Assembly (NCBI RefSeq): GCF_000759955.1
Contig: NZ_JNAL01000007.1
Location: forward strand, 124,001 to 188,000
DNA: 64,000 nucleotides
Direction of reading: 5' to 3'
DNA from: Prochlorococcus marinus str. MIT 9201
GTDB lineage: Bacteria; Cyanobacteriota; Cyanobacteriia; PCC-6307; Cyanobiaceae
The notes beneath the pieces are model-generated. The model ran no database searches. It had not been told where the DNA came from and saw nothing but the letters and a program-made list of their open reading frames with translations. This document shows positions 9,440-23,630 of the stretch, in pieces. Every line of letters starts with the position of its first letter. Within the stretch, counting starts at the first letter, position 1. Both the position numbers and the translations under genes were made by a program.

Positions 9440-9456
9440 GGTATTTTCAATTCTAT

Positions 9457-9529
9457 GGGGCCATAGCTCAGCTGGTAGAGTACCTGCATGGCATGCAGGG
9501 GGTCAGGGGTTCAAATCCCCTTGGCTCCA
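9457..9529 (+). tRNA. tRNA-Ala (anticodon GGC)
   Basis: A complete 73-base cloverleaf can be folded. The acceptor stem pairs GGGGCCA with TGGCTCC, including the G3:U70 wobble pair that is the identity element of alanine tRNAs. The anticodon stem CCTGC/GCAGG encloses the loop ATGGCAT, giving anticodon GGC. The T-stem is AGGGG/CCCCT with loop TTCAAAT, and the discriminator base is A. CCA is not encoded. Degenerate copies at 17062-17132 and 18328-18397 mark this gene as the attachment site of integrative elements inserted at its 3' end. Confidence 0.97.
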
Positions 9530-9623
9530 TTGAATTTTATTAGTGATAGCAATAGATTCGGGCGATTCTCATAAATCTAATGATTAGACTGATATAGGTT
9601 GATAGTTGACGATATAGCTAAAT

Positions 9624-10584: not shown

Positions 10585-10713
10585 ATGCAGATTCCAATTT
10601 TGGGAAAATTAATTTTATTATTTGCTCTTTATTGTATTTCTGATTTATCAATAAAAAGGAATATTTTAAGACAAGCTGTTCGCAGGGCTAATAGAGCTAG
10701 ATCAATTTTTTAA
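10585..10713 (+). CDS. 42-aa putative small membrane protein
   Basis: ATG at 10585, stop at 10711-10713. The N-terminal half is hydrophobic (about residues 3-20, one possible membrane helix) and the C-terminal half is strongly basic (RNILRQAVRRANRARSIF), a positive-inside pattern for a small bitopic membrane protein. It ends on the base before the DUF1651 gene, which is convergent, and it has an upstream region mirrored in that gene. There is no recognisable family. The reality of the gene is supported by the charge pattern and the paired upstream repeats only. Confidence 0.45.
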   Translation: MQIPILGKLILLFALYCISDLSIKRNILRQAVRRANRARSIF

Positions 10714-10962
10714 TTAAAAATAGCTATTAAATATTGAAGTTTTTTTCCAACCTTCCTCTAATAATTTTTTATATTCTTGTCTAGCACCTTCTATAGTTTC
10801 AACTCTTGAACCCTTCATAACTGGCTTACTTGATCTCTTATAGACGCAGCCATAACTAATCATCATTGCATCAATATTTGGACTAGGTTTTGATACATCT
10901 TCAAATGGTTCAAATACTTTTATTCTCGATCTATCCTTATTTATCAAAGTAAACTTTTCCAT
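10714..10962 (-). CDS. DUF1651-like small protein
   Basis: This 82-residue protein ends with a pattern typical of DUF1651 of marine cyanobacteria: R-x-E-T-I-E-G-A-R-x-x-x-K-x-L-x-x-x-G-W. The family has no known function and is often multicopy and island-borne in Prochlorococcus and marine Synechococcus. On the minus strand a perfect TATAAT (10969-10974) sits 6 bp before the ATG, so the predicted transcript would start at or next to the start codon, i.e. it would be leaderless. The 12-bp repeat lies just upstream of that -10 box. The stop codon abuts the convergent 42-aa gene. Confidence 0.6.
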   Translation of the reverse strand: MEKFTLINKDRSRIKVFEPFEDVSKPSPNIDAMMISYGCVYKRSSKPVMKGSRVETIEGARQEYKKLLEEGWKKTSIFNSYF

Positions 10963-10968
10963 AAAATT

Positions 10969-11018
10969 ATTATATTTACCGATACATATATAAGAGTCCT
11001 ATTAGTCCTGAAAGTCCT
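10969..11018 (-). promoter_or_regulatory. -10 box, 12-bp repeat and three iterons upstream of the DUF1651 gene (right copy)
   Basis: Read on the minus strand: AGGACT at 11018-11013, 11009-11004 and 11000-10995 (9-bp period), then TATATGTATCGG at 10990-10979, then TATAAT at 10974-10969. This is the mirror of 10511-10550. The 12-mer is identical in both copies and the iterons have the same 9-bp spacing and the same order relative to the gene. Confidence 0.55.
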
Positions 11019-11091
11019 TAATTATATGATGACCTTCTAGTTACGAAGGAACTCAAATCTTGTGATCTATTGATACGACTAAATGTATGTG

Positions 11092-11126
11092 TGCGAAGCT
11101 AATTTTATTGCGAAATAAAATGCGAA
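11092..11126 (+). repeat. Three TGCGAA repeats, two of them 12 bp apart, with an 8-bp inverted repeat
   Basis: TGCGAA occurs at 11092, 11109 and 11121. The last two have the same 12-bp spacing as the repeat pairs near the tRNA-like sites. Positions 11102-11121 also form an inverted repeat (ATTTTATT and AATAAAAT around GCGA). The 258-bp gap 10963-11220 holds these and the right iterons and no convincing gene. Confidence 0.35.
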
Positions 11127-11220
11127 ATTTTTAGAAAAAATATGTAATGTATTCTATTAATAATAATATTTCTCAAAAAGAAATAATTGAAGTTAAAAAT
11201 TTATCAAGATTATTTAAATT

Positions 11221-12138
11221 TTAAATTTCCATTCTATACAAATTTTTATTATTTATTACAAAAATTGTATCTCCTTTTAATTCACCAATGCCACTTATCA
11301 TATGATAACTATTTGCTAATTTTATACATTTAAACCTTGGTTTATTTGGGAATGCCCCACCATCTCCATATAAGAAAATAATTTTTTTATTAATGTTTTC
11401 AAATTTATCTTTAAAATAAGAATCTTTAATAAAATTATGCTTTCCTGGTGCATTTGCTGCTTGGCTTAATCCTTCAGGAAAAGCATGATGAATAACTACA
11501 TATATAATTTCAAACTCTTTTTCTTTCTCAATCATTGAAATAATTTTCTCTAACGAGTCTTTTTCGCTATTACTATCTCCAATGATGAAAAGTGATTTAT
11601 TCAAAATTAATCTAAAAGGGAAATTCAATCCTGCTTGATTCTTGTGAGGTATTATTGTAAAAACATCCCTCAAGGCAGAATCAAAAACTTTACCTCCAAT
11701 ATCATGATTCCCAGGTGCAATAAATATTTTTATATCTCCTTGAAATTTTGAATAGAAATCTTTCCACTTCTTAATACTTGGTTCTTTTAAAACATCGCCA
11801 CTAAATATTATTGATGAAATTCTTTCTATATTTTTTAAATAAAAATCATAAACTTTTGGAGCAATGCCAACATTTCCTCTTAAATCAGAGTTCCTATGTG
11901 ATCCGTAAGCATGGCCAATAATTAAAGTAGAATTTTTTGGAAGATTAGAAATTATTTTGGGACAAATCCCTTCAGGATTATTGGTTTTTTGTGAATAAAA
12001 TTCTTTTTTTAGTTTTCTTTCTAAATTATTTATAATAGAAAAGAAATATTTTGGATTGCTATAGCAATATAAAAAAACTATATTAAATGCCAGTACAATG
12101 AGAAATATAGTTAATGATTTTCTTTTTAAGTTAATCAT
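11221..12138 (-). CDS. Membrane-anchored calcineurin-like metallophosphoesterase
   Basis: The 305-residue protein has an N-terminal membrane anchor or signal (about residues 8-25) and then a calcineurin-like fold with SGDVL, PGNHDIGG and IHHAFPE, which supply the usual GD, GNHD and H metal ligands. The first family motif (normally D-x-H) reads GHAYGSHR and the last (normally GHxH) reads YGDGG, so both are atypical. It is the last gene of the four-gene operon 15719-11221, 19 bp after the VTC-domain gene. It could hydrolyse a phosphoester or phosphorylated polymer made or handled by its operon partners; the substrate is unknown. Confidence 0.75.
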   Translation of the reverse strand: MINLKRKSLTIFLIVLAFNIVFLYCYSNPKYFFSIINNLERKLKKEFYSQKTNNPEGICPKIISNLPKNSTLIIGHAYGSHRNSDLRGNVGIAPKVYDFYLKNIERISSIIFSGDVLKEPSIKKWKDFYSKFQGDIKIFIAPGNHDIGGKVFDSALRDVFTIIPHKNQAGLNFPFRLILNKSLFIIGDSNSEKDSLEKIISMIEKEKEFEIIYVVIHHAFPEGLSQAANAPGKHNFIKDSYFKDKFENINKKIIFLYGDGGAFPNKPRFKCIKLANSYHMISGIGELKGDTIFVINNKNLYRMEI

Positions 12139-12157
12139 ATTCTTGTTGATGTAAATC

Positions 12158-12769
12158 TTATTTAAGAAGAGAATCTAAGGCTCTTTCATATTTTGAAAAT
12201 CTAGATCTAGGAAAATCAAAATTATTTAATAAGTACGAAAGATTAGTATCTATATCTGCTTTGATTTCCAAAACATAGCTTTGATCTTCAAAGAATGATT
12301 TTTTAAAATTATTATTTAAATTAATTAATCTGTATTTTATTTCTTTATCAATAGTTACTCTTATGTTTTTAACAAGAAAATATTCTCGTACGTAAGAAAC
12401 ATCTATAAGTTGTTTGCAAATTCCATATAAGTTATCAAAATAGCCATTTTTTAACAAGGATCCTAAATTTATATTTGAGTTTGTTTCCTTGAATCTACAA
12501 TGCTCATTTGAAAGCTTAATTTCTAAAGAATATTGACTATTTGAAGAAATAAAGTCATCTGAACCGTATGTTCTTATTCTTATTTTTTTCCTTGGGATAA
12601 GACCTTCAACAGTATCGAAATACATTTGCATATTATTATTGTCAAAATATCTAGAACATATTGTTCTTTCAGGATAAAGAACCTTCCCGCCATTATGGGT
12701 TATCCATTTCAGTAAATCTAAATAATTATGTTTGTTTAATTCTAATTTTTGCTCTATGCGGGGTATCAT
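12158..12769 (-). CDS. VTC-domain protein, polyphosphate-polymerase-like
   Basis: This 203-residue protein has the features of a VTC/triphosphate-tunnel domain: RIEQK at residues 4-8 at the N-terminus (ExK signature), SRYFDN, the basic strand RKKIRIRTYG, further ExK strands YSLEIKLS and YVLEIKAD, and SRFSKYERAL at the end. In yeast Vtc4 this domain makes polyphosphate from ATP. Bacterial members next to DUF4956 and CotH proteins have not been assigned an activity that I know of. Its start overlaps the stop of the CotH-like gene by 4 bases, indicating translational coupling. Confidence 0.85.
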   Translation of the reverse strand: MIPRIEQKLELNKHNYLDLLKWITHNGGKVLYPERTICSRYFDNNNMQMYFDTVEGLIPRKKIRIRTYGSDDFISSNSQYSLEIKLSNEHCRFKETNSNINLGSLLKNGYFDNLYGICKQLIDVSYVREYFLVKNIRVTIDKEIKYRLINLNNNFKKSFFEDQSYVLEIKADIDTNLSYLLNNFDFPRSRFSKYERALDSLLK

Positions 12770-15063
12770 TTTTTTTCTAAAATCGATTTGTTTTGTATTG
12801 CTAATTTGCCTTTAGGGCATGATTTTGTTGGAATTGCAATATATGAAGGCCCAAATTCCTTTTTCTTATTGTAAGCAGCAGCACATATCGAATTATTCTC
12901 TAAATAAGCATTATTAACAATTAGTTTAGAAAAATCTTTTGAAACCAATGCAATATTGCTGTTTTTAATTTCTGCATTTAATACTCTTAAATAAGATTCT
13001 TCTCCTACAGAAACCCCTTTATCTTTGCAGCCATCTAGATTTATATTTTTTATAAAATATTTTCCTGCTGAGGTATCAATACAATCATTTCCTGAGTTTT
13101 GAACATTAATCATATTTACTTTAAGATCAGAAAAATCAAAATCAATTGCATCTTGAAAACTATTTTTAATAACTAGTTCATCTATAGATCCGAAGCTATT
13201 CATTATGTTTAAGCTATCTTCATGTTGGCCACCATCAATATGAATTTTCAAATTTTTCACGTTTGAATCTTTTATTGTTATGAGACTAGTCAACAAATTA
13301 TTATCTATTCTACTTTTACTAGGTTTAAAAGTATTATCTGCATTAGCAAAAACTTTAATATACCAACCATCTAATTTACTATTAGTAAACAAGATTTTTT
13401 CATCAAAATTTTTAAAAATTATTGAGATTAATTTTTTCTTCTTATCAATGGTTAATTTTGGATTACCAAATTTCTTAATATAAATATTTTTTATGGGATT
13501 TATTAAATTTAAGTTATTCGGAACATTGTCATAATAACGTTTTTTAATGGGGTCAAATTTATCCCCTATAAAATAATATTTTAAATTATCTTTTAAATAG
13601 TCACCCACTAATAATTTGTTTAATTCAAAAGAATTAAGATTTTTTTTATTGCATATTTTTTCTTCTATACTGCATAAGTAAAAATTGCTATCTTTCTGTG
13701 AATATAAAGCTAAACCATAGTTTTCATTATTATGAAATTTCCTAATTAAAGGGTTATCTTTAAATTTAGTTTTTAAGTTTATTTTATTTGAATCTCTTAG
13801 ATAAATTAAATTACGAATTAATTGTTCTTTTATGTTTTTTAATTCCGAATCTTTTAATTTAACTCCATTAATTTTTAGCTTTAAAGAGAAAGAAGTTAGA
13901 TTAATTTGCTTAATTTCATTAATTGCTCGATTAAAGTCCTCAGTTTCTATATCTCTTGTAAGAAATCTATCTTTAAAATCTTTAGTGAAATTAAATTCTT
14001 TTTCTAAATTTTTTACTTTAGAGTCCCCATCGTAATAAATAGGTAATAAGGACTTACTAATTGGATCATAATAAAATCTCCTATTGTGGTTGTAAAGAGC
14101 ATGGGTTGTTCCAGAAGAAATAAGATGGGCTTTATATCTTGAGAGTATTCTTTTGCTTTTAATATCTCCATTCGATAAAAGTAAATCGCTAAAAGTGATT
14201 TCTTTGTCGTTGCCAGCATGATTCCAACTTTCTAATATAGCTTTAGAAAAAATATTGGAACCTTCTAATCCAATTCTTTGGTTTATAGAATTTCTTTTAA
14301 TCCATTCTTTATTTACTATTCGAGGGAATATATTACCGTTGCTTGAGGGGCCATTACCGGATCTTATTTCCCACATTAAAGATTCATCAGCTTCAATAAT
14401 AGCTGATTCTCTTAACTTATTATTTTCAAGCATTTCCTTAACAGCCTTTTCCTGAAAAATCATTTCAAAAGTTTTATCATTTAGACTCACTTTGGTCATT
14501 TTGGTCCTTGGAGATAAATATCCCATTTCTTTCATTAACAAACTCACAATAACTTCAGATGATCTATTCCTTGTAGAAGGGATAAATAGTTTAAATTTTG
14601 TTATTCCATTAATATTTCCTTCAGTTAAAGTGACATCTAATGATGAAATAACATCTCCTTTTTTGCTTTGAATGTGATCTTTCCAATCTCCTGAAATCCT
14701 AACTTTGGCAGGTAATTGGCATGTTTTTCCATTTGATTTCTTAAAAGCAATATTTGCAGCGAATCTTTTTTTATATTTTTCTTTAATTATCTTTGAATCT
14801 TCATTAAAAGCTTTTAACAGATTTATAGACCACCTTCTAGATTCTGGAATAGTAATTACTAATTTTTTAAAATAATTAATTGAATTATTTGAAATACCAT
14901 TAAATTCAAAAGAGCAATGAGGCCTTATTGAATCATCTATCAATTGATCTAAATTATTAATATTTTCTTTTAATACTGATAACTTGTTTCTATGGTTAAA
15001 AAAAGATAAGAGGAGTACACTAAAACAACCTGATAAAAGAAATATTAAATAAGCCTTTTTCAT
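12766..15063 (-). CDS. CotH-like protein with C-terminal parallel beta-helix
   Basis: The 765-residue protein begins with one membrane segment (about residues 4-22). A CotH-like region follows: KLFIPSTRNRSSEVIVSLLMKEMGYLSPRT-type motif near 160-190, IFQEKAVKEML near 210, and HNRRFYYDPISKSLLPIYYDGDSK near 325-350. CotH proteins are atypical protein kinases that phosphorylate extracytoplasmic substrates. The C-terminal 200 residues show repeated short strands (DELVIKNS, MINVQNSGNDCID, IKNINLDGCKDKG, LRVLNAEIKNSNIAL) typical of a right-handed parallel beta-helix, as in carbohydrate-active or adhesive proteins. It is coupled by 4-base overlaps to the DUF4956 gene upstream and the VTC gene downstream. 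Confidence 0.75.
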   Translation of the reverse strand: MKKAYLIFLLSGCFSVLLLSFFNHRNKLSVLKENINNLDQLIDDSIRPHCSFEFNGISNNSINYFKKLVITIPESRRWSINLLKAFNEDSKIIKEKYKKRFAANIAFKKSNGKTCQLPAKVRISGDWKDHIQSKKGDVISSLDVTLTEGNINGITKFKLFIPSTRNRSSEVIVSLLMKEMGYLSPRTKMTKVSLNDKTFEMIFQEKAVKEMLENNKLRESAIIEADESLMWEIRSGNGPSSNGNIFPRIVNKEWIKRNSINQRIGLEGSNIFSKAILESWNHAGNDKEITFSDLLLSNGDIKSKRILSRYKAHLISSGTTHALYNHNRRFYYDPISKSLLPIYYDGDSKVKNLEKEFNFTKDFKDRFLTRDIETEDFNRAINEIKQINLTSFSLKLKINGVKLKDSELKNIKEQLIRNLIYLRDSNKINLKTKFKDNPLIRKFHNNENYGLALYSQKDSNFYLCSIEEKICNKKNLNSFELNKLLVGDYLKDNLKYYFIGDKFDPIKKRYYDNVPNNLNLINPIKNIYIKKFGNPKLTIDKKKKLISIIFKNFDEKILFTNSKLDGWYIKVFANADNTFKPSKSRIDNNLLTSLITIKDSNVKNLKIHIDGGQHEDSLNIMNSFGSIDELVIKNSFQDAIDFDFSDLKVNMINVQNSGNDCIDTSAGKYFIKNINLDGCKDKGVSVGEESYLRVLNAEIKNSNIALVSKDFSKLIVNNAYLENNSICAAAYNKKKEFGPSYIAIPTKSCPKGKLAIQNKSILEKK

Positions 15064-15719
15064 GAAATATAATATTTAATATCTTCTATGTCCTGAATTC
15101 TACTAAGATAATCTTTAGTATTATTTAGTTCATTTTTATTAAAAAATGAAAGTTTATATGTAAATTTATTTTTTGCAAAGTCCTCATTACTGAATAAAAG
15201 ATATGTGTTCTCCGATAAATATGCATTTTTTCCTGAACAAGTTATTTCCAATATAAATTGAGGTTCCTCTCTGGAAAAAGAGAGATCTAAATAACCCTGC
15301 TTTGTTGAAAATTGCCTTTTCTTATAAAATGAATAAGAATAAACTATGGTCATACATAATATTGATAAGACAATTGCTTTCCCAATACTTGTTGATATTG
15401 TAATACCCACAGTCAATAACAAGAAATAAATTGAAAGTTCAAGTGGACTTTTTACAGGATGCCTAAATCTAATAATCGATAACGCACCTACCATCCCTAG
15501 TGACAAAGCTATGTTTTTAGATATTACAGTTGTAATTACCAGACCGATAATTGGCAAAATACAAAATGTTGTTACGTTAGAGAAGCTTTTTGCCCAGTTT
15601 TGCCCAGATAATATCAGAGATAAGCTTATAAAGCCCCCGATGAAAATTGATATAAAGCACCTTAAAATAAATTCAAGTGAAACACCAGAGAAGATTAAAT
15701 TAATAAATTCATCGAGCAT
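15060..15719 (-). CDS. DUF4956 membrane protein
   Basis: The 219-residue protein has about four membrane segments in its first 130 residues and a soluble domain of about 85 residues. The signature GMVGALSIIRFRHPVKSPLEL between segments is characteristic of DUF4956, a family repeatedly found next to VTC-domain and CotH proteins in bacteria. Its function is not established. It is the first gene of the operon; the 217-bp gap upstream (15720-15936) separates it from the terminase-like gene in the same direction and contains no convincing gene. Confidence 0.85.
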   Translation of the reverse strand: MLDEFINLIFSGVSLEFILRCFISIFIGGFISLSLILSGQNWAKSFSNVTTFCILPIIGLVITTVISKNIALSLGMVGALSIIRFRHPVKSPLELSIYFLLLTVGITISTSIGKAIVLSILCMTIVYSYSFYKKRQFSTKQGYLDLSFSREEPQFILEITCSGKNAYLSENTYLLFSNEDFAKNKFTYKLSFFNKNELNNTKDYLSRIQDIEDIKYYIS

Positions 15720-15936
15720 AGACTTTTAATTCAAAGGATTTACTTATTCATGTAATTTACCAATAAATGTCATTAAATAACTATAAATATAAGAATTTTA
15801 CTTTTTTAAAATAAATTTTTAATATAAATTCCCTCGAAAACAATGAGAATATTTTTTGAATTGCTTATGCCGACTTTGACGAAAATCTGTCCGAAAATAT
15901 TCAAATCTTACTTCTATTACTCCCCAAGCACCCGCT

Positions 15937-16278
15937 CTAACTTTTTATTTTTGCTTCTAGACCGATTAATTTCATAAGAACTTTTGCATTACTTGCAACT
16001 GCAGAATATTGTTTTTCTTGCATTGCTCTATGCATTGCAGTCTCTAAAGTACAGATTAATTTTGCCGTCATTTCTGGACGATTTAAGTCACCTTCCTCAA
16101 TATCATCTTTCAGCAAAAGATAAGCATTAGAAGTGATCTGCCTTGCTCTTCTTCTTGATATTCCATATTTCGTGGCAACAAGGGAAGTAATAGATGAATA
16201 AGCTTGTCCTTCAGCAACTAATTCAGCAGCATGTGCGACTCTTAATTCAGTTTCTTGTTTAGTTGCTCGATTTGCCAT
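15937..16278 (-). CDS. Phage terminase small subunit-like HTH protein
   Basis: The 113-residue protein starts with a helix-turn-helix of the type seen in phage small terminase subunits: ELRVAHAAELVAEG, then YSSITSLVATKYGISRRRARQIT, followed by long helices. Small terminases recognise phage DNA for packaging; phage satellites often keep one to redirect packaging. A shifted frame at the end reads KNKKLERVLGE before a stop at about 15919, which looks like a better C-terminus, so a small frameshift near 15945 may have altered the tail. I cannot exclude another HTH role. Confidence 0.5.
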   Translation of the reverse strand: MANRATKQETELRVAHAAELVAEGQAYSSITSLVATKYGISRRRARQITSNAYLLLKDDIEEGDLNRPEMTAKLICTLETAMHRAMQEKQYSAVASNAKVLMKLIGLEAKIKS

Positions 16279-17061: not shown

Positions 17062-17132
17062 TAATGGGACTCACCTGTTTTTAGCCCTTCATGGCATGCA
17101 GGGTGTCAGCGGTTCGAGTCCGCTTGGCTCCA
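17062..17132 (+). repeat. Degenerate tRNA-Ala(GGC)-like copy 2, putative attachment site
   Basis: The 3' half (17086-17132) closely matches tRNA-Ala from the anticodon stem to the discriminator base, sharing CATGGCATGCAGG and TTGGCTCCA. The 5' half is only loosely similar and cannot form a D-arm or a 5' acceptor strand. The T-stem is AGCGG/CCGCT, whereas the intact tRNA has AGGGG/CCCCT: two compensating changes. This is typical of a displaced att copy and is not a functional tRNA. Confidence 0.7.
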
Positions 17133-17227
17133 TCAAGGTTTTCGCTAGTTATAATGATTAGTCTGACCAATAATAGATAAGGATACATCATGTTTTAGTG
17201 TCTAAATAAGTATTAATATGCACTTTC

Positions 17228-18327: not shown

Positions 18328-18397
18328 CTTGTTATAGCTTGATTGGTGATCTGCATGGCATGCAGTGGGGTCAGCGGTTCGAGCCCGCTTGGCGCGA
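18328..18397 (+). repeat. Degenerate tRNA-Ala(GGC)-like copy 3, putative attachment site
   Basis: CTGCATGGCATGCAG is identical to the anticodon arm core of tRNA-Ala. The T-arm AGCGG TTCGAGC CCGCT is well formed. The 3' end reads TTGGCGCGA where the tRNA has TTGGCTCCA, and the D-arm region (ATAGCTTGATTGGT) is shortened. The glycosyltransferase at 18427 begins 30 bp downstream. Confidence 0.65.
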
Positions 18398-18426
18398 TTA
18401 GAATTTTTGCTAACTAAAAAATTAAG

Positions 18427-22886: not shown

Positions 22887-23630
22887 CTAAGTGCAATTTC
22901 TTAAGTGATTTAAGGCAATGAACTTATCTTCATATTCTTCTATAGCTTTATTGAAATCTTCATGTCCTGCTTTGGATTTGAAAAAATCAACACCACCTTT
23001 ATTTTTGAAACTTCTCTTTTTATTTATAGATTTTAAAAACCATTCTTTATTAAAGTAATCAGATTTACAATATTTTTTAATCTCATCAAAAACTAATTCT
23101 TTATTATGAATTAAATCATCAAAATCAATAATTAGTCCTTTCTCAGATTTTATAAAATCTTTCCATAATAAGAAATGGTTTTCCCATGATCCAAAAATAT
23201 CCTTATTTTTTCCTAGAAAATTTTCAATAAAATCCTTAGATGATTTATTAATTTTTTTATGTCTATATCTTAGGTATGAATAGTATGATTTGCAGACATT
23301 TTTTGGGTCTCTGTGAATGTAAATTAATTTAGCACCTTCATGGAGTGGCATAGGAAATCCATGCCATTTAACTAGTTGCATTTGTAACTTATTTTGTTTT
23401 AGCAAACTTAGAAAATTTGTTTGAAAAAGATCTATTGAATATTTGTCAATATTTTCTATCTTAAGTTCTTGTCTTTTAAGAGATTCAGCTAATGCAATTC
23501 TTAAAAGAGTGTTGCCGCTTCTTGGGTAAGAAACTATAAATAGAGGATTTTTAGGCTTAAATACTGAAAAATATGATTCGTCAATAGAAAAAGCTTTAAA
23601 AAAAAAAGATCTTAAAATATCTAGTTTCAT
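22887..23630 (-). CDS. PAPS-dependent sulfotransferase
   Basis: The 247-residue protein has the 5'-phosphosulfate-binding loop SYPRSGNTLLR at residues 34-44 and the 3'-phosphate-binding segment IHRDPKNVCKSYYSYLR near residue 105. It transfers sulfate from PAPS to a hydroxyl or amine acceptor, here most likely a sugar of the surface polysaccharide. Its start overlaps the end of the upstream methyltransferase-like gene by 4 bases. A PAP phosphatase (CysQ) is encoded at 48290-49201 in the same genome. Confidence 0.88.
   Translation of the reverse strand: MKLDILRSFFFKAFSIDESYFSVFKPKNPLFIVSYPRSGNTLLRIALAESLKRQELKIENIDKYSIDLFQTNFLSLLKQNKLQMQLVKWHGFPMPLHEGAKLIYIHRDPKNVCKSYYSYLRYRHKKINKSSKDFIENFLGKNKDIFGSWENHFLLWKDFIKSEKGLIIDFDDLIHNKELVFDEIKKYCKSDYFNKEWFLKSINKKRSFKNKGGVDFFKSKAGHEDFNKAIEEYEDKFIALNHLRNCT

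Follow-up and report, generated by a model that had tools for sequence, protein, structure and literature searches.

The locus considered here raises the question of what a cassette of four genes, in which a polyphosphate polymerase-type protein is encoded beside a membrane protein, an exported CotH-like protein with a beta-helix and a phosphoesterase, contributes to the bacteria that carry it. It lies in a window (i.e., the whole stretch of DNA analysed) of 64,000 nucleotides from Prochlorococcus marinus str. MIT 9201 (NZ_JNAL01000007.1, positions 124,001-188,000, forward strand; assembly GCF_000759955.1). An earlier reading of this stretch, hereafter the original prediction, had described four intact, coupled genes within a mobile region, and had proposed that they synthesize or phosphorylate a polymer outside the cytoplasm. 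Comparison with other genomes revealed that the genes for the DUF4956, CotH-like/beta-helix and VTC proteins are one inherited unit, and we tentatively propose that the cassette acts in phosphotransfer at the cell envelope.

A three-gene unit spread over many phyla

The four open reading frames (ORFs) of the module are all intact and all lie on the minus strand, and the ORF list confirmed the coupling that had been claimed: 4-bp overlaps join the DUF4956 gene to the CotH-like gene (15060-15063) and the latter to the VTC gene (12766-12769), and the spacing between the VTC and phosphoesterase genes is 19 bp (12139-12157). The features of the module, in window positions and with the evidence for each in brackets, are the following.

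15060..15719, minus strand: DUF4956 membrane protein of 219 amino acids, with a predicted MgtC-like transmembrane region and a C-terminal ACT/ferredoxin-like domain (PF16316, MgtC profile, AlphaFold2 (AF2) model)
12766..15063, minus strand: exported CotH-like/beta-helix protein of 765 amino acids, with an N-terminal hydrophobic segment at residues 1-27 (AF2, 5jda, relatives with PF08757)
13780..14865, minus strand: CotH-like domain, residues ~67-428 (family profile, AF2, alignment)
14101-14103, minus strand: His321, in place of CotH Asp228
14029-14031, minus strand: Asp345, the equivalent of CotH Asp251
12769..13506, minus strand: right-handed beta-helix, residues ~520-765, with invariant Asp, Lys, Glu and Asn on successive rungs (alignments, AF2)
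12158..12769, minus strand: VTC (polyphosphate polymerase-type triphosphate-tunnel) protein of 203 amino acids, without export signal (PF09359, Vtc4 match)
11221..12138, minus strand: membrane-anchored variant metallophosphoesterase of 305 amino acids, with an N-terminal hydrophobic segment (PF00149, linkage elsewhere)

The module is patchy among Prochlorococcus, where it is found in approx. 5-6% of the genomes. Within a set of 266 genomes VTC was detected in 15 and DUF4956 in 16, and 14 genomes have both, far more than by chance (hypergeometric p ~2e-20). The exceptions are a truncated VTC gene (genome G191), a truncated DUF4956 gene (G219), and a DUF4956 gene at a contig end in a genome that is 65% complete (G142). 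The VTC gene of G191 stands alone (locus L031, 4705-5232) and is apparently the remnant of a decayed module. All three genes occur together in 13 Prochlorococcus loci including the window, despite the inversion of one of them in loci L028 and L030.

Outside this genus, a scan of the species genomes of GTDB with the helix domain yielded 415 relatives, from which 79 loci were kept. Enough flanking sequence was available for 53 non-Prochlorococcus loci: the CotH/helix gene lies beside both VTC and DUF4956 in 39 and beside neither in 14, and no locus has a single one of them. The genes thus co-occur widely, as the original prediction had required. The triad is spread over approx. ten phyla, and by their record titles its loci belong to Planctomycetota, Bacteroidota, Ignavibacteria, KSB1, Calditrichaeota, Deltaproteobacteria, Magnetococcales, Nitrospina, Delongbacteria, Parcubacteria and cyanobacteria. 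Pairwise, the three proteins diverge in a correlated manner (r of 0.89 for VTC-DUF4956, 0.70 for CotH-DUF4956 and 0.61 for VTC-CotH), with values well above the permutation maxima of 0.22-0.27 (0.27 for VTC-DUF4956). The strongest value, that of VTC and DUF4956, is as would be expected of direct partners; common descent of the loci adds to these correlations.

Relation to the accessory genes of Pel loci

The claim that this is an undescribed system does not hold, since these three families already figure as accessory genes in the Pel loci of Gram-positive bacteria, where mutants of them have been described. Genes for cotH, a poly-phosphate polymerase and DUF4956 accompany the pel loci of streptococci, clostridia and bifidobacteria (PMC7112168). 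In Streptococcus intermedius, deletion of the DUF4956 gene raised Pel and deletion of cotH lowered it, and either deletion left less than half of the aggregation in sputum medium (PMC12345266). The authors of this work, published in 2025, found these three genes side by side only in association with Pel. In the genomes studied here, PelG is absent from 14 of the 14 module-bearing Prochlorococcus; in other groups it did not exceed the cut-off in 33 of 35 module genomes and exceeded it in two. Therefore, the module is mostly independent of Pel.

The triad of S. intermedius (SIR_1592-SIR_1593-SIR_1594) and the module consist of the same three families encoded by neighbouring genes; however, no pel operon is present here, the CotH protein bears a beta-helix instead of the FN3 domain of the Pel-associated CotH, and a phosphoesterase and a pyrophosphatase are added in the present loci. 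In the NELoc-2 locus of Clostridium perfringens, a VTC-type gene and a CotH gene lie close to each other and near a glycosyltransferase (PMC2879425), which shows that the neighbourhood had been noted earlier. The features that are new here are the fused beta-helix with invariant Asp and Lys residues, the His that replaces the catalytic Asp of CotH, the MgtC-like nature of DUF4956, the linked extracytoplasmic phosphoesterase, which is once fused to CotH, and a dedicated lipoprotein-type pyrophosphatase in flavobacteria.

The CotH-like/beta-helix protein

Searches with Pfam, NCBIfam and phmmer gave no direct assignment of the window protein to CotH, and it is only through the family profile and the predicted structure that it is recognized as CotH-like. 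A profile of 14 family sequences matches CotH from Bacillus cereus (5jd9) at 5e-14, and five of seven scanned relatives pass the cut-off of PF08757, the best of them down to 2e-11. The AF2 model of the 765-residue protein, obtained with 44 sequences, has a predicted local distance difference test (pLDDT) value of 77, with ~90 for the kinase part, ~97 for the helix and a disordered linker at residues 428-523; its top match in PDB, found with Foldseek, is 5jda (E 1.7e-10).

The protein shares with the spore-coat kinase CotH of Bacillus (5jd9/5jda) the fold, the metal-binding Asp251 (Asp345 here, invariant within the Prochlorococcus set) and the Asn that follows the catalytic position. It differs from it in the replacement of the catalytic Asp228 by His, in the extra beta-helix and in a host that is not a spore-former. 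Asp228 and Asp251 of the Bacillus protein are both required for activity (PMC7821199). The position of Asp228 is occupied by His in 88 of the 95 ungapped clade sequences, CotH proteins without a helix included. The original prediction of an exported kinase-like enzyme stands as far as the CotH fold is concerned, whereas the label kinase is doubtful because of this His in nearly the whole clade. In the Prochlorococcus loci L023, L024, L027 and L028 the His is lost too, and an Asp is found at the following Asn position.

The beta-helix is better conserved than the kinase part. Across 49 sequences it has 17 invariant columns, all of them D, K, N, S, G or E, and several of these residues are placed at steps of 22 residues that fit the predicted rungs (616/638/660/682 and 619/641/663/685). 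In the model, these would form a charged ladder on one face. A glycan-binding beta-helix had been proposed; the model likewise predicts a helix, and the term glycan-binding says too little about a domain in which 17 residues, most of them charged or polar, are invariant. By fold, its nearest solved helices are PL3 pectate lyases, GH28 polygalacturonases and the alginate epimerase AlgG, all weak matches with E ~0.01-0.1, and no sequence profile matched the helix to a solved carbohydrate enzyme. The fold is suggestive of a PL3 pectate lyase relative; nevertheless, given the lack of a profile match, such a relationship is not claimed. In flavobacteria the helix is a protein separate from the CotH-like domain; the gene order in locus L041 and similar flavobacterial loci is pyrophosphatase, phosphoesterase, helix, VTC, DUF4956 and CotH.

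The VTC protein and its putative membrane partner

The VTC protein of the window matches PF09359 at 3.9e-22, and the profile of its family matches yeast Vtc4 (3g3q) along its length at 8e-10. The match to Vtc4, like the CotH fold described above, agrees with the folds expected in the original prediction. The charged residues of the tunnel are kept, as the family-invariant Arg, Lys and Glu columns align to those of the yeast protein. In contrast with the yeast complex, whose catalytic domain it resembles in the triphosphate tunnel and in these residues, the bacterial protein consists of the VTC domain only, with no SPX domain and no transmembrane-like segment, and the membrane partner would be a separate protein, the MgtC-like DUF4956. 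Eukaryotic VTC couples synthesis to translocation.

The DUF4956 protein passes the PF16316 model (E 1e-9, 38.8 bits versus a cut-off of 30.6). Compared with an MgtC profile in hhalign, it reached a probability of 92 and a score of 51 over 198 columns, versus 20 for the reversed control and 29 for the best of 40 block-shuffled profiles; this is a distant match from a single-pair test, with an MgtC profile built from 20 sequences (two sequences alone gave a weak score). The PF02308 model of MgtC/SapB found no match anywhere in this genome. The AF2 model (pLDDT 78) shows membrane helices followed by a C-terminal domain, whose matches in PDB include ACT-type folds, weakly (E ~7e-3). DUF4956 is a remote relative of MgtC/SapB, with which it shares a transmembrane region with a matching glycine-rich motif and an ACT-like domain after it, and from which it differs in its own motif, ALSLGxVGALSIxRFR, and in having a VTC partner. 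The Streptococcus homologue has been independently described as MgtC plus ACT (PMC12345266).

Phosphate enzymes linked to the module

The phosphoesterase of the window scores 5.6e-4 and 20.8 bits with PF00149, just under the curated cut-off of 21.5, which its relatives pass. Among the metal ligands, GD, GNHD and H are kept; however, motif I reads xGHxY, without the Asp, and GDxG stands where the final GHxH would be expected, so that the full calcineurin-like set (D-x-H, GD, GNHD, H, GHxH) is incomplete. Relatives of this protein are encoded at 150 bp or less from the module in 16 loci, and many of them have a signal, an anchor or a lipoprotein-like N-terminus. In a planctomycete (L072, 4068-6404) the CotH and Metallophos domains are found in one protein, with the helix on the next gene. 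Within Prochlorococcus, five of the six genomes with this phosphoesterase also hold the module (p ~1e-6).

A pyrophosphatase gene is located near the module in 15 of the 79 loci, 14 of them from Bacteroidota, and the N-terminus of the product is lipoprotein-like in nearly all; an example of this second, divergent inorganic pyrophosphatase is found at 10622-11227 of locus L055, with others in 14 further loci. In 13 of the genomes concerned there are exactly two PF00719 proteins, the canonical one encoded elsewhere and the divergent one linked to the module (contig positions were checked against the loci for several of the 13). Because an extracytoplasmic phosphoesterase and a pyrophosphatase travel with the module, extracytoplasmic reactions that make or use pyrophosphate (PPi) or phosphate (Pi) are the simplest reason for their linkage. 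These linked enzymes support the direction of the polymer chemistry outside the cytoplasm put forward in the original prediction, whose overall reading is borne out in part. Glycosyltransferases also recur as immediate neighbours of other copies of the module. In Magnetococcales (L101, 11171-11968) the module is adjoined by a gene for a metallo-beta-lactamase-fold protein that matches the Anti-Pycsar protein Apyc1.

A mobile setting bounded by tRNA repeats

The mobile setting of the module is real, as had been claimed, and is delimited by copies of the 3' half of a tRNA gene.

9456..9530, plus strand: tRNA-Ala(ggc); the left direct repeat corresponds to its 3' half (9483-9530)
17086..17133, plus strand: second copy of the tRNA-Ala 3' half in direct orientation, 88% identical, right border of the 7.6-kb segment with the module
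18351..18419, plus strand: another, incomplete copy of the tRNA-Ala 3' half, which probably delimits a neighbouring second segment

With the 48-bp repeat at both ends, the 7.6-kb segment around the module is bordered in the manner of a tRNA-integrated element, as are tycheposons and other tRNA-borne mobile elements. The three copies suggest two adjacent tRNA-integrated segments, with the module in the first only. Beside the module, the repeats enclose only short ORFs without any Pfam match above the cut-off, and according to the ORF lists and Pfam no ORF there except the module genes is of the size of a recombinase; it is possible that the element is non-autonomous or decayed. An ORF that adjoins the module (15937-16278, minus strand, 113 amino acids) codes for a helix-turn-helix-like protein that matches the phage family phrog_34910, of unknown function, and is possibly a small-terminase-like remnant. 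In an empty-site comparison, the left flank of the segment had hardly any match in other genomes except the tRNA itself.

The module is flanked by Wza/Wzz-type polysaccharide export genes and by a region with a sulfotransferase and a glycosyltransferase; the sulfotransferase (22887-23630, minus strand) lies within the surface-polysaccharide region of Prochlorococcus. Scans for promoters and terminators gave no excess over shuffles. A viral origin was considered and rejected, as the beta-helix had no relative in 2.9 million viral contigs (pattern search and tblastn); VTC had no match in a phage collection, and another VTC, used as query, had none in plasmids.

What the cassette may do

We tentatively favour, at rather less than even chances, an envelope phosphotransfer module, in which a phosphoanhydride would be made and exported by VTC and DUF4956 and used by the CotH/helix protein on a surface polymer. 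From the computed gene linkage, folds and features relevant to topology (a VTC without export signal; N-terminal hydrophobic segments on the CotH/helix protein and the phosphoesterase) we infer the polymer synthesis, the export, the use of the donor and the substrate. VTC would work at the cytosolic side of DUF4956 and form PPi or short polyphosphate from the phosphate of ATP; both proteins together would pass this phosphoanhydride outward, as in eukaryotic VTC. The outer side lacks ATP, and there the CotH-like domain would spend the phosphoanhydride on the surface polymer, which the beta-helix would hold or process and which would most likely be a polysaccharide destined for export, for instance the one that the neighbouring genes encode. 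The phosphoesterase, together with the pyrophosphatase in flavobacteria, would clear left-over PPi and Pi or trim the product. What the DUF4956 and cotH mutants of Streptococcus show for Pel and aggregation (PMC12345266) also speaks for the proposal, as do the polysaccharide export genes, the sulfotransferase and the recurrent glycosyltransferases near the module.

Several points weigh against this proposal. In the 14 loci mentioned above the CotH/helix gene has no adjacent VTC or DUF4956, and the pyrophosphatase link is almost limited to Bacteroidota. In S. intermedius, Pel was produced without the polyphosphate polymerase gene, and no influence of its deletion on aggregation was reported (PMC12345266). 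The catalytic roles of the clade proteins are predictions: phosphoryl transfer by the CotH-like domain may not occur, because Asp228, needed in Bacillus, is His in the clade, and the putative phosphoesterase lacks the Asp of motif I and the final GHxH. Likewise, DUF4956 is regarded as an exporter only by analogy. We consider it doubtful that the proposal extends to a widespread system in which a VTC-made phosphoanhydride, passed through the MgtC-like protein, powers the modification of surface polysaccharides, in a place devoid of ATP, by an extracytoplasmic kinase-like enzyme with His for Asp and a second active site in the beta-helix.

The main rival is a regulatory module, in which the ACT-bearing, MgtC-like DUF4956 protein and VTC as a ligand-binding domain would sense cytosolic ATP, polyphosphate or PPi and tune exopolysaccharide through a pseudokinase CotH/helix protein that binds the polymer, with no export. 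It agrees almost equally well with the Streptococcus mutants, with Pel raised by one deletion and lowered by the other (PMC12345266), and it would account for the replaced catalytic Asp of CotH and for the ACT-type fold of the DUF4956 tail, a fold that is usually ligand-sensing; moreover, MgtC relatives regulate ATP synthase and PhoR, as cited in PMC12345266. It is nonetheless rather unlikely, as the charged tunnel residues are kept in VTC, the invariant residue set of the beta-helix is enzyme-like, and the dedicated pyrophosphatase and phosphoesterase, both extracytoplasmic, imply reactions of phosphate on the outside.

A less probable alternative makes the beta-helix the main enzyme, i.e., a carbohydrate-active enzyme of the pectate-lyase-like superfamily (lyase, hydrolase or epimerase) that would modify an exported polysaccharide, with the CotH domain binding or priming the substrate. 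The 17 invariant residues, many of them Asp or Lys, the conservation of the helix above that of the kinase part, its stand-alone form in flavobacteria and the presence of PL3, GH28 and AlgG among the nearest folds after CotH all point in this direction; however, these fold matches are weak, no profile match to a solved carbohydrate enzyme accompanies them, and VTC and the pyrophosphatase would be left unexplained. That the module is cargo protecting against phages, whose product changes a phage receptor, seems very unlikely as an explanation of its own: its carriage between tRNA direct repeats within a surface-polysaccharide region and its patchiness in Prochlorococcus would suit such a role, whereas its occurrence in so many phyla is suggestive of a more general function in the envelope, and phage protection is compatible with envelope phosphotransfer rather than an alternative to it. 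The weakest explanation, a phosphate or polyphosphate store in the envelope suited to a phosphate-poor ocean, which had been raised in the original prediction and would agree with membership in the VTC family and with the presumed habitat of Prochlorococcus, has no direct support and is most improbable, given the same module in many unrelated groups, the number of Pho-box-like matches (73 versus 73 expected, with none in the 15720-15936 leader) and a ppk1 gene already present in the genome. Regulation through a Pho box was rejected, as the number of matches equals chance, and a housekeeping role of VTC in polyphosphate synthesis is unlikely because of ppk1.

Significance

The three families have been known mainly as puzzling accessories of Pel, and their apparent absence elsewhere was read in 2025 as a sign of a Pel-linked function (PMC12345266). 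Their largely Pel-independent spread over approx. ten phyla, together with an extracytoplasmic pyrophosphatase and phosphoesterase of their own, shifts the question from the regulation of Pel to the phosphate chemistry of the envelope. The module can be tested in culturable flavobacteria and, if it is true that it exports a phosphoanhydride, this would explain how extracytoplasmic kinase-like enzymes are supplied with a phosphate donor.

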